A stretch of DNA of 64,000 nt, from contig JAZGTN010000027.1 of the NCBI GenBank assembly GCA_037783415.1, forward strand, positions 4,798,001 to 4,862,000. The letters are read 5' to 3'. The stretch comes from Leptasterias polaris (lineage: Eukaryota > Echinodermata > Asteroidea > Forcipulatida > Asteriidae). The position numbers and the translations under genes were made by a program. This document shows, in pieces, positions 425-44,100 of the stretch. The notes below the pieces were generated by a model that was given only the letters and a program-made list of their open reading frames with translations, did no database searches and was not told the DNA's origin. The number at the start of each line of letters is the position of its first letter. Within the stretch, counting starts at the first letter, position 1.

Positions 425-857
425 GATGGAGTATGCAACACTTCATTGAATATCACAATTTCTGCTTTTCTAACCAACAAACATTTGACAGATTACAGCA
501 ATAATCGGGCCATGGGTAGTAACAATATTTAATTCATGTTTTGCCCACACATTGCCTTTGATCAGTATTCAGTTTGCCAAATGTTTAGAAAGAAAACTAC
601 GGGCCAATTCATCATGTAACATTTGGCTTTGTATCAATTTAAAGCCCAAGTCACTTCCTTTATTAACAGCACTATGACGGCCGTATTTTAAATTCAGTTT
701 GGAACGTATGAATATTTTGTGCAAAACTTTCTAAAAATGAATTTCATTTTTCCCCGTTTTAAGTTTTTATCCACTTTGTGTGTGAGTTTGTCCGTATGAA
801 TCATTACCACAGCTAAGTTTTTATTTTGCATTTGCGTACAATATCATAACTAACGCC

Positions 858-930
858 GGCCGCGTGGCCTAATGGATAAGGCGTCCGACTTCGGATCGGA
901 AGATTGAGGGTTCGAATCCCTTCGTGGTCG
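858..930 (+). tRNA. tRNA-Arg (TCG), copy 2
   Basis: Intact consensus tRNA-Arg(TCG) with type B flanks on both sides (5' CGCC, 3' CATTTAGTTTTACC). The downstream TTTT is the likely Pol III terminator. Confidence 0.95.
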
Positions 931-1144
931 CATTTAGTTTTACCGCTTCTTTGTCAACACGTTTTTGTTCAAACGAGGTATATGTTTGATGTGCATCTGC
1001 GGTAACAAACATTTTACAGAGTTCTTATCATTCCAAATTTTAAGAAACATTTGGTATTTCAGCGGCCGGTAAAAATCCACACAAAAATTTATTGTAGAAT
1101 GCAATAGGCCTAATTAGTTTGGCAAAATAAAATTTGAAATCTAA

Positions 1145-1216
1145 AGGTCCCACCGAGATTTGAACTCGGATCGCGAGATTCAGAGTCTCGAGTGCTAACC
1201 GTTACACCATGGGGCC
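1145..1216 (-). tRNA. tRNA-Gln (CTG), copy 2
   Basis: Same body as the TTG copies but with anticodon loop CTCTGAA, giving anticodon CTG. Followed on the minus strand by an AT-rich spacer with TTTT. The C3-A70 acceptor mismatch is present. Confidence 0.93.
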
Positions 1217-1531
1217 GATGGAAACATGATGAACTTAATTGAATTTCACAATTTAATTTTTTCTAATAATAAAAAATGAAAAAAATAAATAAGGAATTCG
1301 TTGTTTTAGAAAATGAAGCATGGGCCGATTCAAATTCATATACCTTTTTGCTTTTTATCAATTTAGGCCTCAAGTGACTTCCGTCGTTAAAAGCACTTTG
1401 TCAGCCGAGTTTTAAAATCAGTTTGGAAGGTGCAAAAATTGTGTTTAAAACTTCCTAGTGCTTCACTTATTATCAATTTTAGGAAATTCTGCCCGTAAAA
1501 ATCATTCTGTAGCAATGTCATAACTAACGCA

Positions 1532-1604
1532 GGCCGCGTGGCCTAATGGATAAGGCGTCCGACTTCGGATCGGAAGATTGAGGGTTCGAATCCCTTCGTG
1601 GTCG
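1532..1604 (+). tRNA. tRNA-Arg (TCG), copy 3
   Basis: Intact consensus copy with type A flanks. It begins the irregular half-unit step in the array. Confidence 0.95.
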
Positions 1605-1818
1605 CAATTTGTTTTACCGCTTATTTTGTCAGACGTTAGTATACACGTTTTTGTTCAAACGAGGATAGTTTTGATATTATATATCTGCGGTAACAATCGT
1701 TATACAGAGTTGTTATCATTCCAAATTTTAAGAAACATTTGATATTTCAGCGGCCGGTAAAAATCCACAAATTGTAGAATGCAATAATTAGTTTGGCAAA
1801 ATAAAATTTGAAATTTGA

Positions 1819-1890
1819 AGGTCCCACCGAGATTTGAACTCGGATCGCGAGATTCAAAGTCTCGAGTGCTAACCGTTACACCATGGGGCC
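1819..1890 (-). tRNA. tRNA-Gln (TTG), copy 3
   Basis: Intact Gln(TTG) body. The base pattern just upstream of the 5' end differs (CCAATGG on the plus strand instead of CCGATGG). Confidence 0.93.
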
Positions 1891-2323
1891 AATGGAGTAT
1901 GCAACACTTCATTTAATATCACAATTTCTGCTTTTCTAACCAACAAACATTTGACAAATTACAGCAATAATCGGGCCATGGGTAGTAACAATATTTAATT
2001 CATGTTTTGCCCACACATTGCCTTTGATCAGTATTCAGTTTGCCAAATGTTTAGAAAGAAAACTACGGGCCAATTCATCATGTAACATTTGGCTTTGTAT
2101 CAATTTAAAGCCCAAGTCACTTCCTTTATTAACAGCACTATGACGGCCGTATTTTAAATTCAGTTTGGAACGTATGAATATTTTGTGCAAAACTTTCTAA
2201 AAATGAATTTCATTTTTCCCCGTTTTAAGTTTTTATCCACTTTGTGTGTGAGTTTGTCCGTATGAATCATTACCACAGCTAAGTTTTTATTTTGCATTTG
2301 CGTACAATATCATAACTAACGCC

Positions 2324-2396
2324 GGCCGCGTGGCCTAATGGATAAGGCGTCCGACTTCGGATCGGAAGATTGAGGGTTCGAATCCCTTCGTGGTCG
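2324..2396 (+). tRNA. tRNA-Arg (TCG), copy 4 (hybrid flanks)
   Basis: Intact consensus body with a type B 5' flank (AACGCCGG) and a type A 3' flank (CAATTTGTTTTACCGCTTATTTTGTCAGACG). The switch lies inside the tRNA, marking a recombination junction between half-units. Confidence 0.95.
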
Positions 2397-2610
2397 CAAT
2401 TTGTTTTACCGCTTATTTTGTCAGACGTTAGTATACACGTTTTTGTTCAAACGAGGATAGTTTTGATATTATATATCTGCGGTAACAATCGTTATACAGA
2501 GTTGTTATCATTCCAAATTTTAAGAAACATTTGATATTTCAGCGGCCGGTAAAAATCCACAAATTGTAGAATGCAATAATTAGTTTGGCAAAATAAAATT
2601 TGAAATTTGA

Positions 2611-2682
2611 AGGTCCCACCGATATTTGAACTCGGATCGCGAGATTCAAAGTCTCGAGTGCTAACCGTTACACCATGGGACC
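2611..2682 (-). tRNA. tRNA-Gln (TTG), copy 4 (variant)
   Basis: Two differences from the array consensus. The 5' end is GGTCCCA, which restores a normal T3-A70 acceptor pair. A T-stem base is changed (plus-strand GATATTTG for GAGATTTG), giving a G53-A61 mismatch. Function is therefore uncertain. Confidence 0.88.
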
Positions 2683-3116
2683 GATGGAGTATGCAACACT
2701 TCATTGAATATCACAATTTCTGCTTTTCTAACCAACAAACATTTGACAGATTACAGCAATAATCGGGCCATGGGTAGTAACAATATTTAATTCATGTTTT
2801 GCCCACACATTGCCTTTGATCAGTATTCAGTTTGGCAAATGTTTAGAAAGAAAACTACGGGCCAATTCATCATGTAACATTTGGCTTTGTATCAATTTAA
2901 AGCCCAAGTCACTTCCTTTATTAACAGCACTATGACGGCCGTATTTTAAATTCAGTTTGGAACGTATGAATATTTTGTGCAAAACTTTCTAAAAATGAAT
3001 TTCATTTTTCCCCGCTTTAAGTTTTTATCCACTTTGTGTGTGAGTTCTGTCCGTATGAATCATTACCACAGCTAAGTTTATATTTTGCATTTGCGTACAA
3101 TATCATAACTAACGCC

Positions 3117-3189
3117 GGCCGCGTGGCCTAATGGATAAGGCGTCCGACTTCGGATCGGAAGATTGAGGGTTCGAATCCATTCGTGGTCG
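3117..3189 (+). tRNA. tRNA-Arg (TCG), copy 5 (T-stem variant)
   Basis: Type B flanks. T-arm 3' side reads CCATT instead of CCCTT, giving a G-A mismatch in the T-stem. The same change is in copy 9. Confidence 0.9.
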
Positions 3190-3397
3190 CATTTAGTTTT
3201 ACCGCTTCTTTGTCAACACGTTTTTGTTCAAACGAGGTATATGTTTGATGTGCATCTGCGGTAACAAACATTTTACAGAGTTCTTATCATTCCAAATTTT
3301 AAGAAACATTTGGTATTTCAGCGGCCGGTAAAAATCCACACCAAAATTTATTGTAGAATGCAATAATTAGTTTGGCAAAATAAAATTTGAAATCTAA

Positions 3398-3469
3398 AGG
3401 TCCCACCGAGATTTGAACTCGGATCGCGAGATTCAGAGTCTCGAGTGCTAACCGTTACACCATGGGGCC
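3398..3469 (-). tRNA. tRNA-Gln (CTG), copy 5
   Basis: Intact CTG copy, type B half-unit, same body as copy 2. Confidence 0.93.
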
Positions 3470-3784
3470 GATGGAAACATGATGAACTTAATTGAATTTC
3501 ACAATTTAATTTTTTCTAATAATAAAAAATGAAAAAAATAAATAAGGAATTCGTTGTTTTAGAAAATGAAGCATGGGCCGATTCAAATTCATATACCTTT
3601 TTGCTTTTTATCAATTTAGGCCTCAAGTGACTTCCGTCGTTAAAAGCACTTTGTCAGCCGAGTTTTAAAATCAGTTTGGAAGGTGCAAAAATTGTGTTTA
3701 AAACTTCCTAGTGCTTCACTTTTTATCAATTTTAGGAAATTCTGCCCGTAAAAATCATTCTGTAGCAATGTCATAACTAACGCA

Positions 3785-3857
3785 GGCCGCGTGGCCTAAT
3801 GGATAAGGCGTCCGACTTCGGATCGGAAGATTGAGGGTTCGAATCCCTTCGTGGTCG
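3785..3857 (+). tRNA. tRNA-Arg (TCG), copy 6
   Basis: Intact consensus copy, type A flanks. Confidence 0.95.
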
Positions 3858-4071
3858 CAATTTGTTTTACCGCTTATTTTGTCTGACGTTAGTATACACG
3901 TTTTTGTTCAAACGAGGATAGTTTTGATATGATATATCTGCGGTAACAATCGTTATACAGAGTTGTTATCATTCCAAATTTTAAGAAACATTTGATATTT
4001 CAGCGGCCGGTAAAAATCCACAAATTGTAGAATGCAATAATTAGTTTGGCAAAATAAAATTTGAAATTTGA

Positions 4072-4143
4072 AGGTCCCACCGAGATTTGAACTCGGATCG
4101 CGAGATTCAAAGTCTCGAGTGCTAACCGTTACACCATGGGGCC
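4072..4143 (-). tRNA. tRNA-Gln (TTG), copy 6
   Basis: Intact TTG copy, type A half-unit. Confidence 0.93.
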
Positions 4144-4577
4144 GATGGAGTATGCAACACTTCATTGAATATCACAATTTCTGCTTTTCTAACCAACAAA
4201 CATTTGACAGATTACAGCAATAATCGGGCCATGGGTAGTAACAATATTTAATTCATGTTTTGCCCACACATTGCCTTTGATCAGTATTCAGTTTGCCAAA
4301 TGTTTAGAAAGAAAACTACGGGCCAATTCATCATGTAACATTTGGCTTTGTATCAATTTAAAGCCCAAGTCACTTCCTTTATTAACAGCACTATGACGGC
4401 CGTATTTTAAATTCAGTTTGGAACGTATGAATATTTTGTGCAAAACTTTCTAAAAATGAATTTCATTTTTCCCCGCTTTAAGTTTTTATCCACTTTGTGT
4501 GTGAGTTCTGTCCGTATGAATCATTACCACAGCTAAGTTTATATTTTGCATTTGCGTACAATATCATAACTAACGCC

Positions 4578-4650
4578 GGCCGCGTGGCCTAATGGATAAG
4601 GCGTCCGACTTCGGATCGGAAGATTGAGGGTTCGAATCCCTTCGTGGTCG
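4578..4650 (+). tRNA. tRNA-Arg (TCG), copy 7
   Basis: Intact consensus copy, type B flanks. Confidence 0.95.
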
Positions 4651-4858
4651 CATTTAGTTTTACCGCTTCTTTGTCAACACGTTTTTGTTCAAACGAGGTA
4701 TATGTTTGATGTGCATCTGCGGTAACAAACATTTTACAGAGTTCTTATCATTCCAAATTTTAAGAAACATTTGGTATTTCAGCGGCCGGTAAAAATCCAC
4801 ACCAAAATTTATTGTAGAATGCAATAATTAGTTTGGCAAAATAAAATTTGAAATCTAA

Positions 4859-4930
4859 AGGTCCCACCGAGATTTGAACTCGGATCGCGAGATTCAGAGT
4901 CTCGAGTGCTAACCGTTACACCATGGGGCC
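4859..4930 (-). tRNA. tRNA-Gln (CTG), copy 7
   Basis: Intact CTG copy, type B half-unit. Confidence 0.93.
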
Positions 4931-5243
4931 GATGGAAACATGATGAACTTAATTGAATTTCACAATTTAATTTTTTCTAATAAAAAAAAGGAAACAAATA
5001 AATAAGGAATTCGTTGTTTTAGAAAATGAAGCATGGGCCGATTCAAATTCATATGCTTTTTGCTTTTTATCAATTTAGGCCTCAAGTGACTTCCGTCGTT
5101 AAAAGCACTTTGTCAGCCGAGTTTTAAAATCAGTTTGGAAGGTGCAAAAATTGTGTTTAAAACTTCCTAGTGCTTCACTTTTTATCAATTTTAGGAAATT
5201 CTGCCCGTAAAAATCATTCTGTAGCAATGTCATAACTAACGCA

Positions 5244-5316
5244 GGCCGCGTGGCCTAATGGATAAGGCGTCCGACTTCGGATCGGAAGATTGAGGGTTCG
5301 AATCCCTTCGTGGTCG
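5244..5316 (+). tRNA. tRNA-Arg (TCG), copy 8
   Basis: Intact consensus copy, type A flanks. Confidence 0.95.
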
Positions 5317-5530
5317 CAATTTGTTTTACCGCTTATTTTGTCAGACGTTAGTATACACGTTTTTGTTCAAACGAGGATAGTTTTGATATTATATATCTGC
5401 GGTAACAATCGTTATACAGAGTTGTTATCATTCCAAATTTTAAGAAACATTTGATATTTCAGCGGCCGGTAAAAATCCACAAATTGTAGAATGCAATAAT
5501 TAGTTTGGCAAAATAAAATTTGAAATTTGA

Positions 5531-5602
5531 AGGTCCCACCGAGATTTGAACTCGGATCGCGAGATTCAAAGTCTCGAGTGCTAACCGTTACACCATGGGG
5601 CC
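5531..5602 (-). tRNA. tRNA-Gln (TTG), copy 8
   Basis: Intact TTG copy, type A half-unit. Confidence 0.93.
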
Positions 5603-6036
5603 GATGGAGTATGCAACACTTCATTGAATATCACAATTTCTGCTTTTCTAACCAACAAACATTTGACAGATTACAGCAATAATCGGGCCATGGGTAGTAA
5701 CAATATTTAATTCATGTTTTGCCCACACATTGCCTTTGATCAGTATTCAGTTTGCCAAATGTTTAGAAAGAAAACTACGGGCCAATTCATCATGTAACAT
5801 TTGGCTTTGTATCAACTTAAAGCCCAAGTCACTTCCTTTATTAACAGCACTATGACGGCCGTATTTTAAATTCAGTTTGGAACGTATGAATATTTTGTGC
5901 AAAACTTTCTAAAAATGAATTTCATTTTTCCCCGCTTTAAGTTTTTATCCACTTTGTGTGTGAGTTCTGTCCGTATGAATCATTACCACAGCTAAGTTTA
6001 TATTTTGCATTTGCGTACAATATCATAACTAACGCC

Positions 6037-6109
6037 GGCCGCGTGGCCTAATGGATAAGGCGTCCGACTTCGGATCGGAAGATTGAGGGTTCGAATCCAT
6101 TCGTGGTCG
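6037..6109 (+). tRNA. tRNA-Arg (TCG), copy 9 (T-stem variant)
   Basis: Type B flanks, with the same CCATT T-stem mismatch as copy 5. The shared mutation shows that these two units derive from one another. Confidence 0.9.
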
Positions 6110-6317
6110 CATTTAGTTTTACCGCTTCTTTGTCAACACGTTTTTGTTCAAACGAGGTATATGTTTGATGTGCATCTGCGGTAACAAACATTTTACAGAG
6201 TTCTTATCATTCCAAATTTTAAGAAACATTTGGTATTTCAGCGGCCGGTAAAAATCCACACCAAAATTTATTGTAGAATGCAATAATTAGTTTGGCAAAA
6301 TAAAATTTGAAATCTAA

Positions 6318-6389
6318 AGGTCCCACCGAGATTTGAACTCGGATCGCGAGATTCAGAGTCTCGAGTGCTAACCGTTACACCATGGGGCC
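6318..6389 (-). tRNA. tRNA-Gln (CTG), copy 9
   Basis: Intact CTG copy, type B half-unit. Confidence 0.93.
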
Positions 6390-6704
6390 GATGGAAACAT
6401 GATGAACTTAATTGAATTTCACAATTTAATTTTTTCTAATAATAAAAAATGAAAAAAATAAATAAGGAATTCGTTGTTTTAGAAAATGAAGCATGGGCCG
6501 ATTCAAATTCATATACCTTTTTGCTTTTTATCAATTTAGGCCTCAAGTGACTTCCGTCGTTAAAAGCACTTTGTCAGCCGAGTTTTAAAATCAGTTTGGA
6601 AGGTGCAAAAATTGTGTTTAAAACTTCCTAGTGCTTCACTTTTTATCAATTTTAGGAAATTCTGCCCGTAAAAATCATTCTGTAGCAATGTCATAAATAA
6701 CGCA

Positions 6705-6777
6705 GGCCGCGTGGCCTAATGGATAAGGCGTCCGACTTCGGATCGGAAGATTGAGGGTTCGAATCCCTTCGTGGTCG
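6705..6777 (+). tRNA. tRNA-Arg (TCG), copy 10
   Basis: Intact consensus body. The 5' flank carries one change (ATAAATAACGCAGG). Confidence 0.95.
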
Positions 6778-6991
6778 CAATTTGTTTTACCGCTTATTTT
6801 GTCAGACGTTAGTATACGCGTTTTTGTTCAAACGAGGATAGTTTTGATATTATAGATCTGCGGTAACAATCGTTATACAGAGTTGTTATCATTCCAAATT
6901 TTAAGAAACATTTGATATTTCAGCGGCCGGTAAAAATCCACAAATTGTAGAATGCAATAATTAGTTTGGCAAAATAAAATTTGAAATTTGA

Positions 6992-7063
6992 AGGTCCCAC
7001 CGAGATTTGAACTCGGATTGCGAGATTCAAAGTCTCGAGTGCTAACCGTTACACCATGGGGCC
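6992..7063 (-). tRNA. tRNA-Gln (TTG), copy 10
   Basis: TTG copy with one variable-loop change (plus-strand GGATTGCGAG for GGATCGCGAG). All stems are as in the consensus. Confidence 0.92.
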
Positions 7064-7497
7064 GATGGAGTATGCAACACTTCATTGAATATCACAATTT
7101 CTGCTTTTCTAACCAACAAACATTTGACAGATTACAGCAATAATCGGGCCATGGGTAGTAACAATATTTAATTCATGTTTTGCCCACACATTGCCTTTGA
7201 TCAGTATTCAGTTTGCCAAATGTTTAGAAAGAAAACTACGGGCCAATTCATCATGTAACATTTGGCTTTGTATCAATTTAAAGCCCAAGTCACTTCCTTT
7301 ATTAACAGCACTATGACGGCCGTATTTTAAATTAAGTTTGGAACGTATGAATATTTTGTGCAAAACTTTCTAAAAATGAATTTCATTTTTCCCCGCTTTA
7401 AGTTTTTATCCACTTTGTGTGTGAGTTCTGTCCGTATGAATCATTACCACAGCTAAGTTTTTATTTTGCATTTGCGTACAATATCATAACTAACCCC

Positions 7498-7570
7498 GGC
7501 CGCGTGGCCTAATGGATAAGGCGTCCGACTTCGGATCGGAAGATTGAGGGTTCGAATCCCTTCGTGGTCG
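7498..7570 (+). tRNA. tRNA-Arg (TCG), copy 11
   Basis: Intact consensus body. 5' flank is AACCCCGG rather than AACGCCGG. Confidence 0.95.
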
Positions 7571-7778
7571 CATTTAGTTTTACCGCTTCTTTGTCAACAC
7601 GTTTTTGTTCAAACGAGGTATATGTTTGATGTGCATCTGCGATAACAAACATTTTACAGAGTTCTTATCATTCCAAATTTTAAGAAACATTTGGTATTTC
7701 AGCGGCCGGTAAAAATCCACACCAAAATTAATTGTAGAATGCAATAATTAGTTTGGCAAAATAAAATTTGAAATCTAA

Positions 7779-7850
7779 AGGTCCCACCGAGATTTGAACT
7801 CGGATCGCGAGATTCAGAGTCTCGAGTGCTAACCGTTACACCATGGGGCC
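7779..7850 (-). tRNA. tRNA-Gln (CTG), copy 11
   Basis: Intact CTG copy and the last Gln gene of the array. Its upstream flank diverges after about 7880. Confidence 0.93.
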
Positions 7851-8187
7851 GATGGAAACATGATGAACTTAATTGAATTTTAGAATTTGATATTGTCTAG
7901 GCCTAATAATAATAAAAAGAAATTGAAAAAAAAAAAAGGAATTCGTTGTTTTAGAAAATGTAAAAGTATGGGCCGATTCATGGGCCGATTCATATTCATA
8001 GGATGTTTCGCTTTTTATCAATTTAAGCCTTAAGTGACTTCCTTCACAGTTTGGAAGGTGCAACATATATGTTCAAAACTTCCTAGTACTTCTCTTTTAT
8101 AAATTTTAGGGAATTCCGTCCGTAAAAATCATCATACCTCATCTAAGTTTTTGTTTTGGATTTTCTTACAATGTCCTAATTAACGCA

Positions 8188-8260
8188 GGCCGCGTGGCCT
8201 AATGGATAAGGCGTCCGACTTCGGATCGGAAGATTAAGGGTTCGAATCCCTTCGTGGTCG
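8188..8260 (+). tRNA. tRNA-Arg (TCG), copy 12
   Basis: Last tRNA of the array, in a diverged unit. The body is consensus except AAGGG in the T-stem 5' side. It is followed at once by TTTTTT, a strong Pol III terminator, unlike other copies where TTTT comes about 8 nt later. Confidence 0.94.
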
Positions 8261-14133: not shown

Positions 14134-17100
14134 GTAAGTGAGACGATGATATCATCCTGTTCGGGTTATAGTGGTTTCAGAGGGTCTGTGACAAAAACTA
14201 CTGAATAGTGTAGTTAAATATAAGCTTGGTTTGAGGGTTGGCACTAAAACCACCCGAATACTGGCTAAGTTTACCATCGTAAAAAGTATACTTTTACACT
14301 TCAAATACATCACATGTGACTGACTCTTTGAGTGAATTAAATAATTAAGGGCCTAACTATTTTAAAGTTCAGTTTGGTTTTGATAGCAGAGTGTTTAAAT
14401 TTGTAACTTCTTTTGTTTGTCTATGACTGTCTATCATTCCTGCACTACTGTAAACATCCAGGTAAACTACTAATACTATGACTGACTGTGTTTGTATCAA
14501 ATTTCAAGGAAGTTTTGTGATCATGACTCGACTATAAATATAGGCCTATCCAGTTTTAATCTGTTTTGTTCTTTGGTGCCTGATCAACTACATTTATGTT
14601 TGGCAAAAGTTGTTTAGTGAGTTTGCTTGTCGATGGTCTCAAACCTATAATTATATGTTTAATTATAGGTTTTATTATAGGTTTAATTATAGGTTATTAT
14701 TATAGGTTATTATTATAGGTTATATAATAGCTCATTTGTCATGTGGCTGATTTTGGCAACCGCATGCGCAACAGAGCTTTGTATCACAAGCAAAACGTGC
14801 GTCCCAAAGAGTTTGCTCTGACAGACTCTCGAAACTGTTTGTGTCTAGTGTTGTCTAAACAAAACTATCTCATTTTTGTTACAGCTGATGCTTACTGTTC
14901 ACCAGATCCATGTTTAAATGGAGGAACTTGCTACACAGGAGCCAGTTCCTATTTATGCATTTGTCCAAGCAAATACTCCGGGGAGCATTGTGAAACGTAT
15001 CAAGATGATAACAACAGTGAGTACATACAAACAAACAAACGCCAAATGAAATAAAGCAACGAACATGCCGAAGATGGGGGTAACTCGAGCTGAAATGTGC
15101 ACTGGGCGCCATGCCGAAAATGACTATTGGTATTGCTATAGTCAATAAAATCAATGACCATTGGATTGCTGCATGGTCATTGCTATTTTTATTATAAAAT
15201 TAAAAACATTTTCTTACCAAAATGGCAAATGGTACCCATTCGTATTTCACGTTCCACTCTCCAGTTCCCAATCATGCACCTTCGGTGCTCCACACAAGTG
15301 ATCAATCATCACGGGCCCACTTTATAGATAAATGTAGCTTTAAGCACAACAACACTAGTTAAAAATGATAAGCATAAGTTATGGCGCTTACCATTTTTGA
15401 CTAGTAGTAGTACTAGTAGTATCTTGCACATTTTTTCTAAGCTGAAAACTTTTAAGCAATATTTTCTGCTCTATGAAATTTGGCCCACAAGACGGAGTAG
15501 TTGTCATTATGTTTACACACACAGCATCTGTTTATCACCCACAATGTAGGCTTCTGTCTCGTACATCAATGGATGAGAAATATTAGGCTTTTATTTGAAT
15601 TGAGGCTTTTTAAAGTCTGCCCGGTAAAGCACAACATTCTGTATTTTTCTCAAAATAAATTAAGTTATGCTCTTTGATTTGATTTACTTTTCTTTTCTAC
15701 CAATGAGGATGCTCCCGAGAGCTCATTGGAATCTATAGGTTCTCCAAGGGTTGCTGAAATCATTTCAAAGTACCTCCTAAGATCTGGATCCATGTTTCAC
15801 ACCTTTTTTTGTCACAAATTACTCTCACTCACACCATCATACATACATGGCACAACCAAAATTGTTTGGGAAATGTTCAGTGTCACAAGCATTCAAGAAG
15901 AAACTGTAAACACTGTTTAAAAGAAAGAAAGAAAAAAAATTATCATCAATCAATGCAAAACTACAACTATGTATGTAAAGTTGCACAATGATTTATTCAG
16001 ATACACACCACCTACACCTCCCAAAACATCACATTAGTCACGGTAACGGTTAATCTACAAATTAAACGAATGAAGTGAAGTTTGATTATGATTCTACCGA
16101 GCCATTACCGTAATGAGGAGTCACGTGAGATTGTATTGTTTAGTAGCTAGAGGTATGCCACAATTGAAAGAAAAGAATGCAATTCCCGCCTGTGTGCCCC
16201 TATAAATGGGCCGTCCACAGGCGTACTCACCAGTGGTTTAAAGTATGAAACAAAAAATATTTACACTGTTCCCACACAAAGGGTGGGTGAGCATGACGAT
16301 GTGAGCGAAAAACGTGCTAAGGCACAAAGGGTGGGAGTCACGTGACTCCTCATTACGGTAATGGCTCGGTAGAATCATAATCAAACTTCACTTCATTCGT
16401 TTAATTTGTAGATTCTACCTCACCATTACCTCCATTCCGACTCACGTGAGATTTTAAAGCGGGACAGTGTAAAACCAAAAGCAAGTCCCATAACGCAGTT
16501 GATGCACATATGAAAGTGTAAAAACTACAGATCTTGTATTCTGATGTCCAAGGTAACTTATTCTTGCATTCTTTATTAAATTATAAATACAAAATCAAGA
16601 CTAATCTGTCTTGTTTGACAAAAATATACAGTACAAATTAATGACCAAACAAGCCCTTCACTTCTGTTCAGCATAATTAGCACTAAAAATGTCGTTCAAA
16701 TTCACACTGAAAAATAAACTAGACTTTATTGGCCTTCAAATAATCATTTGTTAGTTAAGATCGCTTGAGAAAAACGACATTGTGCTTCTTCTGAAAATAA
16801 AACACTCTCACTTCTGTTATAGAATCCAGCGAAGGTTGTTGAGTTTGTCCAACCTGCTGTCTTCAGAATTAAGTTAATTGGTATCCCTTTGTTTACTGCT
16901 GCTGAGGTTGAAGCAGCTCTAAAGCTGTGAGCTTTAAACTCTGATACATCTACACCAGCCTCAGTAAGAGACTGTTTTAACCAACGGGAAATGGTGGCAG
17001 TGCATATCTCTTTATGCGGCACCGTATAACTTCAAAATAATTTAGAATTACAACCTCTGAAAACTTTTGTTCTTCTCAAATACTCTAATAGGGTTCGAAT

Positions 17101-20100
17101 AACACAAATATTTTTATCATGTGGATATGCCGACAGTACCACCTGTGGTTGAAGTTTGCCTGGTTTAGACGTTTTAATCAGGTCAGTTATTTGAATACAA
17201 ACTTGTTTGTTTCTGACTTTCATGTTAGAAATATCAAACAGATTTAATGTCTGGGCACGTTGGCCGGTTGTGAGTGCACACAAACAAAGGAGTTTGTAAG
17301 TTAACTGTTTCAATGTGATGGACTGTAATGGCTCCAATCCGCTGACATAGCGGAGCAAAATGCCGACATCCCAAGTATGGGTATAACGAGGAAATTGAGG
17401 TCTTAAGTTAAATACACCTCGCATAAAGCGAATAACCAAAGGATGGCTGCCAAACTTAGTTTTATTATCAGATGTTAACCAAAGCAGTGATGACAGCGCA
17501 GATCGGGCTGTATTTACGGTGCTATAATTTGCCCCAGTGTGAACTAACTGGGTAAGGAAGTCTAAAGCAAATGTTACAGTCGCATGAACTGGATCGACTG
17601 TCCGTTCAGTGCAGAAACGTAGCCATTTGTCAATTGATGATGCATACTGTTTCTTGGTGCTTGATCTCCATGAATGTAGGATGATGTCAATAGTTTTGCT
17701 CGAAAATCCCCTTGCTTGGAGTGATCGTTTGATAAGAGAGCAGCACACATTGTCATTTGGCTCTTTAGTGGATGCTGAGACTGTGGAGCATGTGGTAGGC
17801 TCAGCAACCCGGAAGTCTTTGGTAGTACTAATGGCTGTGCTATCAACAGACGCAGCATTCTGGGGAACCAGTGTTGGGTTTGCCACAAAGGAAATATGAG
17901 TATCCCCGTGGATCCATCTGTCTCTATTTTCTGTAGCACCCTGTCAATGACAGCAAAAGGTGGAAAGGCATAAATAACTTCATTTGCCCAAGAAATTGTA
18001 AAGGCATCGCATGTAGTTGCCTCTGGGTCAGGGAGCCACGAAACAAACGGCTTAAGTTGGTAATTTGCTCTAGATGCAAATAGATCAATACTCGGTGTGA
18101 TGCCCATTGTTAAAATGATTTGACGAAAAACATTGGCATCTAATTTCCATTCGAGATGATCCTTAAAGGATCGGGAAAGAGTATCTGCACATGTATTCTG
18201 TACGCCAGGTATATGACGTGCAATCAACCAAATGTCATGTTGGGTGCACCAGAACCAAATTTGTCTGGCCAAGTGATTCAGTTCAGACGAGTGACAGCCC
18301 CCCATATGGTTAATATATGCAACTGCAGATACATTGTCCATTGCAATGGACACAGTTCTGTTTTGAATGTCAAGTCTAAAACACTTTAGAGCATAGAAAG
18401 CAGCAAGGAGTTCCAGATAGTTTATGTGAAACCTTGCTTCATGCACTTTCCAACGTCCATTAGTTTGAATTTTAGCCTTAGGACAAGAGGCTCCCCATCC
18501 CTGAAGGGAAGCATCAGTAAATATCTCAATGCTGGCTACATGTGGTAGTATTGGTCGAAAAGAGACCGGTAAATTCTGTATCCACCATTGCAACTCAAAC
18601 TTAGCATCTGCAGAGAGAGGCATTTTAGCCTTGTAATTTCCATCATGTGTTTTCAAAGCAATGTCTTTGCTCGTTTCCAAACTTCGGTAATACAAAGGTC
18701 CCAGAGGGATTGCTGGGAAGCATGACACAAGTTTTCCTATAACCTGTGAAACTCTATGAATTGTTGGGTTTGATTGACTTGCAAGTTCAAGGCATGCCTC
18801 AACCGAGGTTGATATTTTAAGTGGCGGCAGGCGTACCGTCATTTCTACTGAATTAATGGTGAATCCCAAAAACACCAGTTCTTGGACTGGGTTAAAGTGC
18901 GACTTCGATTGGTTAATGACAAAACCAAGTTCATTAGTTAATGCGCAACGGTGTGCAACATTTTGGGTACATTCATCTATCGTGTCCCCGATCAGTAATG
19001 AGTCGTCAATATAGTTAGCAGAAATATGGCCAGCATTTCGTAGAGTTGAAATGAGTGGTTTCATAATCTTTGTAAAAACACGAGGTGCACTCGCAAGCCC
19101 AAAACACAAGCATTTAAATTGCCATAGTCTGTCTCGCCATTGAAACCGTAAAAACTTCTGGTGTTCCTGGGCAATTGGTATTGTAAAATATGCATCCTTC
19201 AAATCTATGGATGCTAAATAGCAATTTGGACGAATTAGTGCCAATGCAAAATCAAGAGTTTCCATTTTAAAGTGGTGATAAGTGACGAATTTGTTTAGAC
19301 CTTTAAGATTAATAATTGGTCGCATCGAACCATCTTTCTTTGGTCGAAGAAAAATATTGGACAAGATTTGTCCATGGCAAGGAGTGACTCGAACAATTGC
19401 TCCTTTTTCTTGTAATTTTGTAATTTCCTCGTCAATCAGTTGCACCTCCGATTCAGAACATTGAATAGGCTTTGGAATATGTGTCTGGAAAGGAGGGTGA
19501 TCAAATTCAATATGGTAATGTGCAACTGTATCCAGCACCCATTTATCAGAAGTTATTCTTTCCCAAACAGGGATAAATTGTTGCAATCTTCCAGCAATAG
19601 GAGACATGTACTTACTCACCAACTCCCTTGTTCCTGATGCCCTTAGGTCACCTATTTTTTGGCTGTCGAGGCCACGGTGGATGTGCTTGGGATTTGCTGG
19701 TAATTGGCACGGCCACTTTGACTCTGTTGTCGATGTTGTTGCTGCCGATGATACTGTTGGTGGTACTGCTGGTAGCCGCCTCGCCCTTTCGGGTAATATG
19801 GCGCCCTCTGGTGGCCGCCAAAGTGCAGTTTCGGGAATCGTGAGCGATAGTCCCCCGATCGTTGGGTCGATCCACGGCCTCCAAACTGTCGATGATTACG
19901 ACTTTTAGAATCATATGCAAACATCTGTGAGCTAATTTTGTTAGTCTCAACAATAGTTTTACATGACTGGGCCAAGTCGTCTCCGAAAAGGAGATTAGTA
20001 CAAGGGACTTGGGATGAGCATAAGGTTGCGTACTTTTGGTTGAGATCTGGTCGAATACAGTCTCTTCTGCGCAGATTTAACTGGACGTTGCCAGAGCCAA

Positions 20101-23100
20101 GTATGGCTATTGCGTCCACCAGCATTCTGATAACTTGAGCGGTGTCAATGGCTTTTTCATTGTTGTTTTTGGCTTTCAGCAACTGATCAGTGGCCATTGC
20201 AATAGCTATTGATGCCCGCACAAAAGAGCTTTGTACCCGTTGGAATTTGACATCTCTGGCCCGTGTAGTGGGTTTTAAGATAGACCAAATCTCCGGGTTT
20301 ACTCTGGTTAGACACAAACTATCGCAATTGTTTGGTCTATTATATTTTCCCATTTTTTCCTCAAGTTTTTCGGGTTTAATTTTGCCTTTTGCAAGTGCAT
20401 TGATTGTCTTGGCCAATTGTTCATTAAGGGCTGAACTTGTCTTATCGTCACCCTCTATTAATGCTTCCATTTCAGTCAGCAAGTCACTGCCGTTATCGCC
20501 CAACAAATTTTCCAAATCACCTTCAGTGAAAGTATCTTCGCCCTTTTCAGGTGCAATGAAAGTGTTTGCAGTGGTATTGCCCTTGCCCGTCTCCGGTACC
20601 AGGTTTAGTGGACGCAAATTGTCATCAGGGATTTCGCCCTCACTTAAAATACCCTCAGACGGGATAGGCCCAATAGCATCATGGCCGGAACTGGAATCTT
20701 TCTGCTGCAAAAATGCATTTGTCAAAGTAGCAACAGTCTGTTGCAAGCTAGAAACTGCGTTGCGCAAATCTGAAACATCTTCGCCGCTCTTAATTAGCTT
20801 ACCAGGCGGGTCGGTCAGCGCATTGACGCCTTGCTGCCGTTCCGTGTTTTTGCGCTTGTTGGTTCGCTTTTTTGCCTTCGCTGCAGGCGGCATTGACTTA
20901 CTCAATGAAGAAGAGGCAGTTTCCGATACTGGCACTTGTGTAAGAAAGGATAGCTCGTCATCGAGTTGGCCCATAAGACCCTCGTCCTCCGAGGGATCAA
21001 TTTGCAAAACGGCTACATCTGCCATTACTGATGGACACGTAAAATGATGTCCCAAACAATTATTGTGGTAAGTTCACGGTGCTATAATTTGCTAGAGCGC
21101 TGCAGGAACGCACCGACGTACTCTCGCGATAGCCACTAAAAATACACTGGTGAGTACGCCTGTGGACGGCCCATTTATAGGGGCACACAGGCGGGAATTG
21201 CATTCTTTTCTTTCAATTGTGGCATACCTCTAGCTACTAAACAATACAATCTCACGTGAGTCGGAATGGAGGTAATGGTGAGGTAGAATTGGTTTGAAGA
21301 CCTCAACTTCTTAGAACATCTAACAAGTAAGCCTAAATAATGAGGAAAACTCGACTCTAAACATCCACAGAGATTAGAATATTCATAAAGAAGGCTAATT
21401 GTACTCAACAATGAGGAACTTGTGAGAGGTCATGTCATCTTTGTAGCTCTACGGTGATCGATGACTCCACAATGTGTGAAATTCAAGTATGCAAGGTTGA
21501 TTAAAGGCAGTGTATACTTTTGGTTATTGTCAAAGACCAGTATCCTCACTTGGTGTATCCCATGAATGTGAATCAATAACAAACCTGTAAAAATGTGGGG
21601 TTCAATTGGTCATTGAAGTTGCAAGAAAATAAAATGAAGAAAAAAAAACCCACACCCTTGTTGCGTAAGATTATTTGCTCTTAGATGCCTAAGAAAGGTT
21701 TCATGCCTGAAGCCTTTCTCAGATTCAAATTTTGGGGGGAAATTTGTTCTCTTTCGCTTAAACTACATTCTTTTAAAGAGGGTAGTTTCTAAGAATGTTT
21801 TTATACTTGTTAAATGTTGAAGTAATTTCCTGAGGTATACCCTCCCTTTAACATAAAAGACCTTAAATAAAAGACCTTTAATAAAAGACCTTAAATAAAA
21901 GACCTTTAATAAAAGACCTTAAATAAAAGACCTTAAATAAAAGACCTTAAATAAAAGACCTTAAATAAAAGACCTTAAATAAAAGTATACAGATTGACTC
22001 GAATAATGTGATCCTTGAGTTTGGCTCTACCAGCAGACTTATGTACTTTGTTTGTGATGGTATTTGAAAGGATTGAGTTCTATCCATAAGATCCTCTGCA
22101 TAGAAACCCAGCCATTCATCAGAATCCTAATCGAAGTCTAAATCCTTCTGGAGGAATCGAAGTCTAAATCCTTCTGGAGGACTTGAGCATGAATCAATCC
22201 GTAGTCAAATATCCTTGGTAGTGTTCGGCAACAGCTTTGTTTGGCTTACACTTTTAAAGCATTGTGTGTAAAACAAATTATATATCATAACAAGTGTTTA
22301 ATTGCTAAGTGATTTAAAATTAGGCTTAAATTCAAGGAATTTACATCAACAAAAACAGTTGAAAACCCCCAAATTAAGGGGTTAGGCCTACATAATAGAC
22401 CTACTATAATTACCAAGGAATGCAACTTTTCAATCATTTCCCTTACTTTCAATTTCTCAGCTGTGCCATTGGAAATTAAAAAGCACGGTACAAAGTCTTG
22501 CTGTGCCTGGGTTTTCCCACCTTTTTTTAATGTTGTTGACAGTATGCAATCCCTAGCCTGAATACTTAAATAAATCAAGTTTTGCAAATGGACATAGGCC
22601 TAAATACAACTTTCTGAAACTTTTAAAACCATAACACTTTTAAAACATTAAACTTATCCCAGAGATTTGGCACGTTCACTTTCTGTCTACATCACGGGGA
22701 GCAATCCTACTTATTTGACGCTAGATTTTCAAAATAAAACCATGATAAAAATATATGTACCACTGAAAGTTAACAGTTTAGTCAATTCTAAAATGATGTT
22801 GTTGTTTCCCCCCTGTTTAGTGCTACTTCCATGCTTTCCAGACCCCTGTGTCAATGGAGCCACCTGTTTCACCGGACCACAGGGTGCTTATTACTGTGCG
22901 TGCTCACCTGGGTTCGATGGAACTCGATGTGAACGTTCCATAGAATATGAGTCTAGTACTCGTAAGTCAACAATAAATTTCTGTTTTCTGTTTACTTTTT
23001 CCTTTCTTTTTAAAGGCCCTGTACACTATTGGTAAGATCGAAAAACACAAATGTTCACAGATTCACACATAACTTACATGATTTAAAGTAAGTAATGGTA

Positions 23101-35100: not shown

Positions 35101-38100
35101 TGGTTTTATGCTGATGTATGCGCAGAGGGCAGGTTTCTGTCTCGCATAAATTTGGCATCTTGTATAGTTTTGTCAACATCATTGGCATAAAAATGGAGGC
35201 TTGGCGTATTTGCATCCAAGTACCAATGTGGAAAATACGGGTACAGCACAACCGCAATGGTTTGGTCTCTTCTGAAATTGAATTTGAAGTTTCTCTGTCT
35301 GTGTTTTATCTTGACAACAGCCGATCCCTGCGCTGGAAACCCATGTAAGAATGGTGCAACGTGCCAGTCTAGTGGGAGTGTCTACCAATGCATCTGCAAC
35401 TCTGGTTATTCCGGAGACAATTGCAATGTAGAAGGTAAGGTTAGGTCAGACTGAAACTTCCTTGGCTATGGCTTATAGGCTGTAGGCTTTCTTGGCTATG
35501 GCTTATAGGCTGTAGGCTTTCTTGGCTATGGCTTATAGGCTGTAGGCTTTCTTGGCTATGGCTTATAGGCTGTAGGCTTTCTAGGCTAGGGCTTAGGATA
35601 AAGGCTTCTAAGGGTAATGCTGAAAGTGTTTTTTTTTTTTTGTGTGTAAAATTTAATTATTTTTGACAATTTGATAGAAAACAAATCCCCACCTGTTATT
35701 ATTATTTTTCTTTTTAACCTCAAAGGGATGTCCAAAGTTTCAAAATATGTTATGGTTATAGAAGTCTAGAATATTTTTCAAGATCTCCACCTCTCCCAAA
35801 CTTGTAGTTGTTTTAGTTGTGTTTGTCAATTAGATTCCATGTGAAACTGCTCATCAACTGCCATCAACTGCCCCCCAAAAAGTCCCCCCCCCCTCAAAAA
35901 AGGAAAATCTCAAAACACACAAATTGCATAATGTGGTTTTACTACTGTTAGTCCAGCTGCTAAGGCCCATATGTGAAAAAATTGTGCACTTTGTGGTAAA
36001 AGCATGGAACTTCCTACAGTTGTTATATACACCCTAAGGATCATTTTAAGACTTGGACCCATCTCGGATCTTACCTATTTTAGGGGCGGGGCTATGTTTT
36101 AAGAAAGTGGGGGTAAAAATCGCCAAATTGACTTTTCCACTAGATTGTTTTATTTTTCTGCACTTTTTGGGACTGCAAAACATAAAAACAGTGAAATGAT
36201 AAATGTTTATATGAAGTTTTGTTTATTTCTGACCCTTTTGTGGGCGGAGTTACGTTTTTTAAAACATAATCTGCCAACTGTTAACTTGAACCTATTTTTC
36301 CCTTTTTATTGAAGCAACTAAATGTAGATCATCAAGATTTTCACCTAAATCTGTAACTAGGTTTCTTCTATTCTGAAGAAAAATGGAAAGGTAAGGTAGA
36401 TTACCTTGACAACACAAGGTATGCTGGTTTTCTTGGAAACGCAACAACAGGTCTTAATCTTGGCATTCTCCTGAGCATGCACATAATACAGTGCATGCCA
36501 ATCCAGCCTTTCCACACTTGCAGCGTCCACCGCATGACTTCTTGCATGAGCAGTGTAGTAACTCTGAGCATGTCTTGGATGCTTCTGGAAGTGTGGTCCA
36601 AAATGGATGCCACAGTCCGGACACTTTTGTCCATCCCCAATCCGAAGGGCTTGGCTGATGATGATCAGGATGAAGACAGAACTTCCAACAGTTACTTTGA
36701 AAGCAAGCACGTTTGATGTGTTGAAGAAGGGAAGCAAAGGTCGGTGGAATATTCTCTATTGAACGGGACTTACTTGCAAACAGTTGTTTTCTTGCCTCAT
36801 TTACAGTGTCAAGGTCACTGGTTCGACAGTAAAGAAGCACCACAAAACGCTGCATCAAGGCAATGGACTTGTGGCTGATGTTATCTGGCATGGACACCAA
36901 CTCCTCAAAGGCTTCAGTTGCTTCAGGGTACACATTCCATACATTCCATGCCGTCTTTTTCCCTATCCCTGTAAATGATGATACTGTATCACAGCCAGTG
37001 AAAGAATGAAAGAATGGGAGGGCAGCTGACTTCCGAGGACCAATTGATGCAGCAATGCTGTGAATGGGTATATATCTGAAGTTCTTGCCAACTCCAAAGG
37101 CCACCCAGAGCTCTTCAGGCTTGATGTCATTCATGACAGATATTGCAATGACAACAACATCGGTGTCTACTGTGCGCACCAATAGCTTCTTACATCCTTT
37201 CTGCTTGGCATCGGCTGCATGCAAAAGCATTCGGGTGTCCGCTTCTTCATGAGAACATGGGGCTATCCTGCTGATATCGAGTGTGGATGGAGAGCAGCGA
37301 ACACTTCCCCCATCAGTAGCGTATATATCTTTGCCGGGTATTGCTAACAATGTAATCTGCTGCGTCAAGAAACTGAATAACTCGGTCTTGTTCTCGTTTA
37401 CACGCAGGAAGTCTTTCCAGTATCTTGGCATTGTCGTTGAACCTTCAACTCGCCTACGAACACCTTTGCCTCTCTTTTCTCTTGTTGTACCCTTTAGACT
37501 ATCTGGCCGATAAACATCCCAAACAATATCCAAACGTGAAGTCTTCCCAAGCTCCTTTTTCACATATGGTACGAATATCTGCTTTGCATATTCATAGAAT
37601 GTCCGAACTGTTCCTGGGGCCAACATCTGTACTATAGCAGCACCATCCAAAATGGTTGCATCAACTGTTAAAGGTTCATTTGAGCCTTCGACCTCTGCTT
37701 CCAAACAGGACATCAGCTTTGCTTTAGTTCCAAGCCTCAGTTTTCCGCTTTGTGACAAGGAAGGTGGACATGCCTGGTTCTCATGTTCGAAGAACGTGTC
37801 GATATCTCCGTCTCGTGATTGGCACGCGAGATATAACCTTGCAAAGAGGTTACAGTCACTCTTTAATGACTGTATTTGGAGTTTACTTTTGGTCCGATGG
37901 ATTGGTCCAGAGCTTCTAAATAACGTAAGCTTATTCTTGCGAATTGTTTCAGAAACGGGCTTCACACACGTGGACAGCCTCTCCTCAACAAATGTGTCGT
38001 ACTGCTGCTTTCCTTTGTATTCGATGTTTCTCACAGCTTCCACCACTGATTCTTCCATTATTTCTTTTGTATCCAAAACAAGAAGATCCTTGCTCGTTTC

Positions 38101-41100
38101 GAGAAACGGATTTCCGAGCTCTTCCATCGCCGTTTTAAGGGACCTGACATCTGCCTTTAAAGTATTCTGCACTGCCGGACGCTGTTCATGGTGTCGCTCA
38201 TTATTACCTTTTCGTGCCTTTTGGGATATGCTTAAGTGGTCTTCTTCAAACTCAGTCAGTACACGGACGACCTCAGGCCCTGCCACCATCCAACGCCTTA
38301 AAGCTCCCGGGTTATCCGTTAGCCCAACTGCTCCGCCTGTACCCTTTATCAACGCGTTGTTCTGCTCATGGCATTGGTCGATGGCCATTCCTGAAAATCG
38401 GTGTACTGACTTGTTGACGACGAACTTTCCTGCTCTGAATTCCTCAAAGATGGAAGGGTGTTTTTGTTCTAGAGACATCATGTCACGGATGTGAACAGAC
38501 AACCACCGAGAGTAGTGAGTATGATCCAGTGCAAAAAACCAAGGCATAATTGCAGTGAGAGATTGAATGTATAAATCAAAGTTCCCTTCGCGGATGGAGC
38601 GCACAAAGATTAGAAGTTTGATCTCTAGAGAGATTACCTTCATCCAGTAGTCGAAGTGGACACTCTCTCGAGCTCGCTGTGAGCACCAGTCATCAAATGA
38701 TAGACTACATTCTGAACCAGTGGTTCCATCAGTGTAATCAGTGTAAGCATCTTGAAGAAGAGCATGAAGAGTGGCTGCAGTGACTTGGTGTGCATGACGT
38801 GTCTTTGTCACATGGCATACCCTGATGAATGAGTCCGATGTACCCGTGCTAGCAATGCTCGCTTCTGTTAGAACACTGGTCCATCCACTACCATCCAGCC
38901 AGTCTCCCAGTAGCTGTAAAGACATGGTAATAGAATTCAAACTTAAAACACAAACAATCTAGGTAACAAAAAAAGAACCACACAAAATGTTTTTTTAAAC
39001 ATTGCACTAATGTACAAATAGTAGAGTATGGTTTATAGTTACCTTTAATATGGCCATCTCGATGTGGAGTCCTCCAAACATCACAACGATAGAATCTTCT
39101 CCATGTGATGCTGGCCACATCCACTGAATTTGCTTTGCTAGGGCGAAGAGTGGTTGATCTACTGCAAGTACAGGAACTTGACCGGGGTTGAGGTACTTGA
39201 CCGCCGCACTGACAACATCCATAGAATGCTTTATCATGGCAACTGAGTGAGCATTGTCCAAGAAGAGTGGCATCAGAGCATTCAATGCTGGTGGCGGGGC
39301 ATCTGTTTGCTGTGTATCGGCATGGTATGCACTCCATGATATCCATTCTGAATCATCTAGTTTGTCTCTCTTCAAGGCTGCAGTGACCACATTCAACCAC
39401 TGTTTCTCCTCTTCAATGGCCTTAGAAAACATCAGTTCGTCACTGGGACATAACGGCCCAGGTACTGTAGGTGCAGTGAACTCCTTTTTCTTCATAGCAA
39501 CTGGTGGAACAGATGTGTAGAAGGTTGGTAGGTGAGAAACCGTCTTTGTACAGCTTGAAGATGTTTCTTTGTTGATCAGTACCAGTCCACGGTCAATACC
39601 AGTATCCCTATATGATGGATGTTGCATGATGGATATGCCTGTACCATGGAATGAATCATGAGATGTTGTAGAGCTGGGATTGTGATCTATATTATCCACT
39701 GCCCCTGTTGTGAAAAGTTCATGACGCATTTTACTTGGGCACACAACTTTTTCTGTTTCAAATTGCTTACATATTCCATTTGCCATATCCGCTGTAATTT
39801 GCAGAAGTCTGTCATAGGATACACACATACCAAGGCAGTAGAATACATCAACCAGAATTCTTTTCCGGGTTAGTCCATGCAGCTTTAGAGCAATGTACAC
39901 GGGCAAAGGTGTTTCTCTTTCTCTTGTGTGGCGTATTCTATTACCCGATTGAAGGTGAGACTTGCTTGCGTGTTGAACACTGTTGAACATAAGCAATTGG
40001 GATATAGATAATGCAGAAGGGGTCCTGGATGATGTACCATCTGCAAGTTTAGACTGCTTTTCGATGTTTGGTCCTTCTTGTATCATTTTTACCAGAGCTA
40101 GCAAAGAGGATGGTACAGCATCTTGTTGGCAACCTTGCTTGAATGTTCCCATGAACGAACATTGATGAGTGAACATCTCACGGCGTACAATCTTTGCAGC
40201 ATTTGCCAAATGTATGGCATCATTGTCATAATCACACGCTTTTATCAAAGCTGCTCCAAGGTTTGTATCATAGGTAAGGAGAACATCACGGCCCTCTGTG
40301 TGTGCTGACAAATGAGGAAGTGCTGTCATTAGACGATCTTTTAGCCGTGTACTATGAACTCTAGAATCACTGACTGCTCCCATCTGCTTTAGCCGGTCCT
40401 GGTAAAGTGTAGCAAGATCGGATAGTTTGAACACAGGAACAAGATCTTCCTGATCACAAAAGTCTTCCATGTACGCAACAAGTTCTGCCAAAACGATGCC
40501 ATGCAGATGAGCGTCAGGATCCTGAGATTTACTAGGCTTGTCCCTAGCAGCCTTATTGTATAATGTAACTAAACACCTTGCATGATACTTTGCTTCTGTG
40601 GCTATCATGTCACCATCTGCCAGCTTTCGAAGAAGCTTTGTATCTTGCAAATCAAGAGCACACTTTCTAACTCTTGCGTCAAGGTCAAAGGTAGACACAC
40701 TGTGGAGAACTAGTTTCCCAGCAGGTTCTTCACAGAAGAAGCATATTGGCTCAGAGCATGGTTCACTTGGCCGTCGAGTTTGAATTGTTGCATTTTTCTC
40801 ATGTGTGCTTCTCGCAGTTTTAGACTTGATGGCGCGCTCCAACTTAATTTTACTGAATTTCAGCAAACAGGTTTTGTGCCACACTGCTTTATGTTTCATC
40901 AGTGTTGTTTCGATGCCACGCCCATCATCATCAAGTCGGCTAGGATCTAGGTCAATGGGCAATGTGCATCCGAATTCTTCAAACTGTTTTATATTCTCTG
41001 CAAAGGTCATATATCCAATTCCTGCAGACTTTGCTGGGCATTGCAAAGCTTCATCCGTATCAGTTTGGCATAGAGCACATCGCTCCCAGGTTGTTGATAA

Positions 41101-44100
41101 AATCTTTGGCTGCTTGGGTGTGCTCGGCTGGAAAGGATCAACAAGCATGTAGCGCTTGGCCATTTTTAGTCACTGTGTACCAGTTTATGTCCAAACAAGG
41201 CCTACTCTGTCTCTCTGCTCTGTTGTAATACGCAGACTGTAATATATATTACTAATTCTCACTGGTGTTTAGATCAGATTGTCTTCAACTGTATGGCTGA
41301 GTCAGACTGACGCGCTGTATACTCTCTGTCTGTAATGCAGTTAAATGGGAACTTTTAGTAAGTTGAGTTATCCATGCAATTTCAAACACTAAAATCCTTT
41401 GAATGGAGAAGAATTACTGCAGAAAATGCGAGGTTGTAGTTGGGTTGTAAGTTATTATCAAATTAAAGAGTGAATTTACTTCCCTACAGACCATGTTTGT
41501 ATAAAAAAGTCAAAATAATACTCACCACGTGGCTGCACTTAACCAGATCATGGGGGCTGCCATATTGGTTTTGCGCCCTCTTGTGACAATTACAGTTGCG
41601 CCCTCTTGTGACGCTTACAATTCTCAAGGGTAATATGGTATTCAAGCAAAGAAACTTTTGTCTTATTGTATGGATGTATCATTCACTGACAATCTATAAA
41701 CAAAATCGCTGTTAAAAATATTTTCAGAAGTTTAAGATACTAAAAAAGGAACCAAAAGTTTATGTTACATGTACCCTAAGATGTTTCTCCCCAGTGTTTA
41801 AAATACAAGCCCTACCCACAAAAGATGGGTTCGATAAGGGCGATTTAATTTGTGATCAATTTCCATTCAGTCTATGTCTATAAGTAATATGTATGTAAAC
41901 AAAAAATATGATACCACACAAGGAAACGAAATTCTTTTAAAAAGACGCCCACTTTTAGGAAAATCGAAGCTCCGCCCATTAAGGGGGGATTTTAAATTTT
42001 TATTTGTACCCCAAAAATTATGATATTGTTCAAGCTTGTATTAATTGGAAAAAAAATACAAAATTTTTCAATTCTAGAATTGGTTTTCTCATTTTTAAAT
42101 TATCGACACCCCCCTTTTATGCAAATTAAGCTCCGCCCCAAAATAGGTGAGACCCAAGGTGGGTCCAAGTCTAAAAATTATATTTAGCCCCATACCAACC
42201 ATCATAGCAAATTTCATGCTTTTACCACAAAGTGCACAATTGTTACCTTAGCAGCTGCACTATGTACACTAGAATGTAAATTACGTGTGTTTTCAAATAT
42301 TAAATGATTAATTAAATTGAATTTAATTGAATTGAACTTATCAAACTGATTCTCTTCCTAGATTTGTTTCAGTGACTGTTTTTGTTGATTTCACTGCAAA
42401 CAATTTTTTTTTTAAAGTTTAGAAACAGCTGACCACGCCCCTCCCCCCTCTTTTGTAATCATGGTAACTTTTAGAATGTGAAAATAACTTTTCACGGCCC
42501 CTTAAGTCTCATAATAGTCTTCATGAGCTGACTTTTGGTTTGTCCCCAGATTTTTGCCACAACGATCCTTGCATGAATGGAGGAACATGCCGCTTGACAC
42601 AGGAGTTGTTTGAGTGCACTTGTCTCCCCGGGTTCACAGGGATGCATTGCTCCGAAGCAGGTAACATCATTAGTTATGACACAAGCGGGAGTGGGAAAAC
42701 GGAATATCCGACGAGGTTGAAGGCCAGACATGCTATATTTTTCTGTATTCCACGAGCCCGCAAGTGATAACTTGCAAACAAGCAAACTTGCAAACAAGCA
42801 AACTTGCAAACAAGCAAACTTGCAAACAAGCAAACAAGCAAACAAGCAAACAAGCAAACTTGCAAACAAGCAAACTTGCAAACAAGCAAACTTGCAAACA
42901 AGCAAACTTGCAAACAAGCAAACTTGCAAACAAGCAAACTTGCAAACAAGCAAACTTGCAAACTTGCAAACAAGCAAACTTGCAAACAAGCAAACAAGCA
43001 AACAAGCAAACTTGCAAACAAGCAAACTTGCAAACAAGCAAACTTGCAAACAAGCAAACTTGCAAACAAGCAAACAAGCAAACTTGCAAACAAGCAAACT
43101 TGCAAACAAGCAAACAAGCAAACTTGCAAACAAGCAAACTTGCAAACAAGCAAACAAGCAAACTTGCAAACAAGCAAACTTGCAAACTTGCAAACAAGCA
43201 AACTTGCAAACAAGCAAACAAGCAAACTTGCAAACAAGCAAACTTGCAAACAAGCAAACAAGCAAACTTGCAAACAAGCAAACAAGCAAACTTGCAAACA
43301 AGCAAACTTGGCGCGTATTTTAAAGTAGCGCAATATGCAGGGTGTGATCAGGGCCTAATTTCATCAAGCTGTTAAGCAGAAAATACTGCTTAGCAAATTT
43401 CTATGCTAAGCAAAAAATGGGTTGGGGACCAGTCACAACAATGTAAACTTTATGGAGTTTTGCCAGGTAACCAGTTTCTGCTAAGCAATATTTTTCTGTG
43501 CTTAGCAAGTTTTTGTGCTTACATGCTTTATGAAATTGGGCCATGGTCTGTGCAATAAAGATTTATAGCACATCTCTTGTTTGCTATGATTCGACCAATC
43601 AGAATTGAGTATCCAGGATTGCTTGAAGATAAAACATAACAGAACTTATAGCGGTTACAATTTATTGGGCGCTATTCCATCAAGATCATAGCTCATATGA
43701 TAGAAATTAATATGGGAAGAGGTGAGTCTTAAGAGCTATATGAAATAGAGGTAAACTAACAGATTCACAAGATTGTTCCATCATTGGTCCAGCTGAATGC
43801 TTGTTGACACATGAAACTTTGTTTGCATGGGGAACATTCAACGTGTGAGTGATGTAAAGTAAGGACCTAAGAAAACTCTGAGGAATGTAATATGACAGTA
43901 AATTGGAGAGAGATTTTGGAGTTTGGGTCAAGCATTCATAAACAAAAAGAGCCAGTTTAAAAGTTGCAAACGTTTAGCAAAAAAAAAATGTGTTTACAGT
44001 GTTAATGTCGACAAGAATTGAATCCAAAACCTCAAAATTAAAGGCTGCTGTTTTGGTTTTTGTCTTTTGCAGAGCCATGTTTCCAGATGCCATGTATGAA

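Follow-up and report, generated by a model that had tools for sequence, protein, structure and literature searches.

This study followed up a transposon-like gene in a stretch of 64,000 nt from the genome of the asteroid Leptasterias polaris (contig JAZGTN010000027.1, positions 4,798,001-4,862,000), which is referred to here as the window; all positions below are window positions. An apparently intact, autonomous DNA transposon was recognised in this animal genome, and very probably it belongs to the AcademX lineage of the Academ superfamily, a judgement that takes in the mechanism proposed at the end of this text. The encoded protein of 1526 residues combines an XPG/FEN1-like nuclease domain with a candidate DDE transposase core (D490/D669/E890), the latter split by the intron and overlooked in the first-pass annotation of this DNA. 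Most likely, the class of element has already been described, and the copy found here is a clean, apparently intact example of it.

Gene and element structure

The gene was rebuilt from the window, and the reconstruction agrees with the two antisense frames of 707 and 819 codons, joined across a 129-bp GT-AG intron, that had been proposed earlier. Exon 1 (39043..41163, minus strand; 707 codons, residues 1-707) holds both zinc modules and, of the three candidate DDE acids, the first two, the 129-bp intron (38914..39042, minus strand) falls within the candidate DDE core, and exon 2 (36454..38913, minus strand) supplies 819 codons and a stop (residues 708-1526), the two exons fusing in phase. The longest stop-free run in the gene region, 834 codons, is far beyond chance, the maximum in 500 first-order Markov simulations of the region being 214. 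Related proteins align across the exon junction without a gap, for example P0026 of Capitella. In seven of the 23 relatives of alignment A4 (P0121, P0122, P0123, P0125, P0127, P0134 and P0137), a V follows LK or LQ and homology then stops, as judged by eye, which suggests from the protein sequences that an intron at the same site has apparently been retained, unspliced, in these entries.

The range 36454..41163 given originally covers the gene, but the whole AcademX-like element is larger, occupying 6314 bp (35949..42262, minus strand), and its ends are marked by the inverted repeats together with 3 matching bp in the flanks. The terminal inverted repeats are imperfect, about 155 bp long, and both start TAGT(G/C)CAGCTGCTAAGG. 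The repeat on the 5' side of the gene (42108..42262, minus strand) starts TAGTGCAGCTGCTAAGG and is 73% identical to the other end over a 167-column alignment (E 4e-21), while that on the 3' side (35949..36114, plus strand) starts TAGTCCAGCTGCTAAGG and was recognised both by this alignment and by separate inverted-arm detection. Aligned locally, the two ends scored 94.5, whereas the best of 300 alignments in which the bases of one end had been shuffled reached 39.5. Immediately outside both ends, read on the gene strand, stands ACA (42263..42265 on the 5' side and 35946..35948 on the 3' side, both minus strand), a possible target-site duplication (TSD) seen in the flanks of a single copy. A second copy of the ends or of the gene was not found within the 64-kb window.

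The nuclease domain

Residues ~1103-1463 (36646..37728, minus strand) were assigned to an XPG/FEN1-like nuclease domain by fold comparison of a predicted model and by residue conservation. The first-pass annotation had read the C-terminal half of the protein as a FEN1/XPG-type nuclease, and the fold comparison, which had been named beforehand as the refuting test, came out favourably: the predicted model matched XPG/FEN1-type structures, so that a fold of this type is supported at the level of the model. The five C-terminal motifs it had described were found at the positions it gave. Seven acids (D1130, D1173, E1264, D1266, D1290, D1292 and D1349) stand in the expected order, each conserved in 55-56 of 56 sequences, and from the fold match, order and conservation they would be expected to come together in three dimensions. 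The later acids are those proposed originally. The first is not: D1125, which is D in only 32/56 sequences, was dropped from the active site in favour of D1130, present in 56/56. The GIGKK text that had been taken for a family signature is atypical of the relatives, in which its I is replaced by R, K or H in 50/56 and is I in only 3/56.

Structural alignments with EXO1, FEN1 and XPG gave 10-16% identity. The domain shares with these nucleases the fold, the order of the acids, an arch-like K/R pair (the basic residues here are K1181 and R1188) and a region corresponding to the helix-two-turn-helix of FEN1, but unlike them it stands in one polypeptide with a candidate DDE core, zinc modules and a CXC domain. 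XRN/Rat1 5'-3' exoribonucleases, whose substrates are RNA, matched at lower Z than EXO1. Neither the window protein nor the 19 members of alignment A3 matched Pfam XPG_N or XPG_I at E values up to 1, and a weak 5_3_exonuc match (E 0.25) was seen in one of the 19. The assignment is based on the fold, on the order of the motifs and on conservation, because the family alignment, used as a profile to search PDB sequences, retrieved nothing useful (two rows, best E 0.5). Nuclease activity would be expected of such a domain.

The candidate transposase core and cysteine-rich modules

Upstream of the nuclease lie three conserved acids that are candidates for a DDE triad. D490 (39694..39696, minus strand) is present in all 24 sequences of the exon-1 alignment, with D493 equally conserved and therefore an alternative candidate; D669 (39157..39159, minus strand) is D in 21, N in one and a gap in two of the same 24, and in alignment A1 (50 sequences) its column holds 37 D, one V and 12 gaps; and E890 (38365..38367, minus strand), in the motif DQxHEQNN, is invariant in A1 (50/50). 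The structure of this part was examined in a model of the relative P0001 (1112 residues, 64% identical to exon 2, predicted local distance difference test score 83.7), in which D81, D258 and E475 are the equivalents of D490, D669 and E890. In the upstream part of the model, strands and helices follow one another as in an RNase H-like core, D81 lying in the first strand (conserved in 19/19 A1 sequences having a letter there), D258 right after the fourth strand and E475 in the last helix, ahead of which about 150 residues form an all-helical insertion. Such a placement of acids is the classic DDE layout. In the 50-sequence alignment, additional conservation was seen as D in 44/50, and as H in 27/50 and N in 23/50.

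The N-terminal zinc-binding modules and the C-terminal Cys cluster of the first-pass annotation were both borne out. The two modules have the form CxxC...HxxC: C29, C32, H96 and C99 (40867..41079, minus strand), with C29 and C32 in 22/24 sequences (two gaps) and H96 and C99 in 24/24, and C141, C144, H194 and C197 (40573..40743, minus strand), each in 24/24. At the other end of the protein, the nine cysteines of the cluster C1495-C1524 (36463..36552, minus strand) are each present in 47-50 of 56 sequences, with 6-7 of the misses due to gaps, and C1489, just ahead of them, is C in only 40/56. The source annotations of matching proteins name this region Tesmin/TSO1-like CXC; it was modelled with low confidence, and in Pfam a weak TCR/CXC match (E 0.44) was obtained with one of the 19 members of A3.

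Relatives and host range

At E ≤0.001, 581 protein clusters matched exon 2 and 430 matched exon 1, from about 8000 scored candidates per exon search. Host names were taken from the best 120 of 581 and the best 120 of 430, and among these listed matches most were without an organism name; the named hosts were animals, which we grouped as sponge, coral, annelid, molluscs (including the limpet Patella), priapulid, echinoderms, tunicate, hagfish and fishes, except for three rows from a metagenome-assembled genome of Sedimenticola (P0113, P0135 and P0238), which are probably host contamination. Pattern scans of GTDB genome contigs (76 stretches) and of IMG/VR (93 stretches) gave no stretch encoding a relative by tblastn, and so offer no sign of a bacterial or viral home.

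Classification and alternative explanations

The nuclease of AcademX is, reportedly according to Kojima in 2020, of XPG type. As described in a passage of PMC10045372, AcademH elements have TSDs of 9 or 10 bp and AcademX elements TSDs of 3 or 4 bp, a difference linked there to an encoded helicase versus a nuclease, and Academ is listed among the DDD/E superfamilies in a section of PMC9587614. The L. polaris element resembles AcademX in its candidate DDE/D-type core, its possible 3-bp TSD, its terminal inverted repeats (73% identity) and a nuclease in place of a helicase, no Pfam helicase being matched by the window protein at E values up to 1. It differs from the sister lineage AcademH, of the same superfamily, in having a nuclease and a possible 3-bp TSD rather than a helicase and TSDs of 9-10 bp. 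Its length is similar to that of curated Academ elements, for which an excerpt of PMC10294476 gives an average of 5565 bp in bivalve copies; the same excerpt mentions a few Academ open reading frames (ORFs) in Capitella teleta. The suggestion of an undescribed class of mobile element is unsupported, because these features fit the AcademX lineage, as far as PMC10045372 sets it out in the passage cited, and because hundreds of related protein clusters exist. Literature searches returned nothing joining Academ, XPG and transposon or DUF6589 and transposition, and a search for XPG nuclease with transposase returned, by title, nothing on transposons.

Several observations weigh against this assignment. 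Membership of AcademX was judged from architecture, against published descriptions of the lineage. Among molluscs, Academ is nearly confined to bivalves in the excerpt of PMC10294476, with which a relative from a limpet fits less well, and an older paper places a RecQ helicase in Academ (PMC3627910, in the relevant lines), which suits AcademH and not the present element. The TSD is one 3-bp match in one copy, with a chance of 1/64 at fixed ends. Foldseek TM-scores of the XPG domain were modest, at most 0.40 by query and 0.56 by target among the matches listed. Strands 2 and 3 of the P0001 model are about 110 residues apart, further than in a plain RNase H core, and a search with the whole 1112-residue model retrieved no known DDE transposase by fold; the missing match carries no meaning, because the XPG domain filled the match lists (all 50 listed VIA matches were of XPG type or XRN, and Foldseek returned these and chance matches). 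In Pfam, the transposase part was matched by DUF6589 below the cut-off, with E 0.0028 for the window protein, E 2.3e-5 for P0042 and E 4e-6 for P0160, and weakly in five of the 19 members of A3 (best 2.3e-5).

Given these points, the element could represent a separate, unnamed superfamily of terminal-inverted-repeat transposons in which a DDE core and an XPG nuclease likewise occur together: a DDE transposase with a seemingly shared intron, and a complete EXO1/FEN1-like nuclease that would remove the element's own 5' flaps. The link to named Academ elements is architectural, Pfam yields weak DUF6589 only, and the relatives spread beyond the bivalve-centred picture in the excerpt of PMC10294476, but the possible TSD length, the nuclease, the candidate DDE core, the size and the occurrence in Capitella all agree with Academ as far as the cited excerpts describe it, and a separate superfamily is considered unlikely. 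A smaller chance is given to the XPG-like domain being itself the recombinase, as the first-pass annotation had proposed, with the upstream region merely binding DNA. Its active-site residues are complete, its fold is well supported and the DDE core is so far without a fold match; set against this, the upstream region has highly conserved acids of its own in an RNase H-like order, so that the candidate DDE core is the likelier recombinase. XPG nucleases are DNA-cutting enzymes with no known ability to join ends. Least probable of all is a domesticated, immobile host gene of transposon origin, for although the frames are long and intact and all catalytic residues are retained, the gene is flanked by matched terminal inverted repeats and a possible flank duplication, and some clusters represent many sequences, as expected of repeats (up to 162 members in the exon 2 search and 318 in the exon 1 search, among the matches listed).

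Surrounding sequence

One end of the element is followed, after about 500 bp, by tandemly repeated AACTTGCAAACAAGCA-type units that form a long array (42769-43310) with a 104-bp higher period (94% match), and the long ORFs on both strands of this array are probably meaningless; some 350 bp past the opposite end is a 30-bp tandem repeat of 4.6 copies (35457-35595). Further away, a DIRS-like element on the minus strand (16037-21289) carries an RVT_1 match (E 3.8e-19) and, below the Pfam cut-off, matches to RNase H and to the N-terminal part of tyrosine recombinase. Its 145-nt arms (16091-16235 and 21145-21289) are 93% complementary, and more inverted pieces lie at 16338-16456. The start of the window (66-8260) is a tandem array of 23 tRNA genes, in which tRNA-Arg(TCG) on the plus strand (12 genes) alternates with tRNA-Gln(TTG or CTG) on the minus strand (11 genes), with a repeat spacing of 666-793 bp.

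Proposed mechanism and significance

In the mechanism proposed for this AcademX-like element, the zinc modules and the CXC domain would bind the transposon ends, and the candidate DDE core would cut and join them, yielding a short target duplication. The XPG/FEN1-like nuclease, with its modelled fold and presumed activity, may then cut the second, non-transferred strand or trim 5' flaps at the transposon-target junctions, which would leave a duplication of 3-4 bp. Its role would then resemble that of TnsA in Tn7, a second nuclease that accompanies a DDE transposase; a passage of PMC3627910 names TnsA alongside TnsB. Possibly, the nuclease acts solely in repair of the donor site. The L. polaris element offers an apparently intact copy in which the ends are defined, candidate catalytic residues are present in each of the two domains and the nuclease is well modelled, and with these, the role of a flap-type nuclease for a DDE transposon, and whether this nuclease sets the 3-4 bp TSD, become directly testable.
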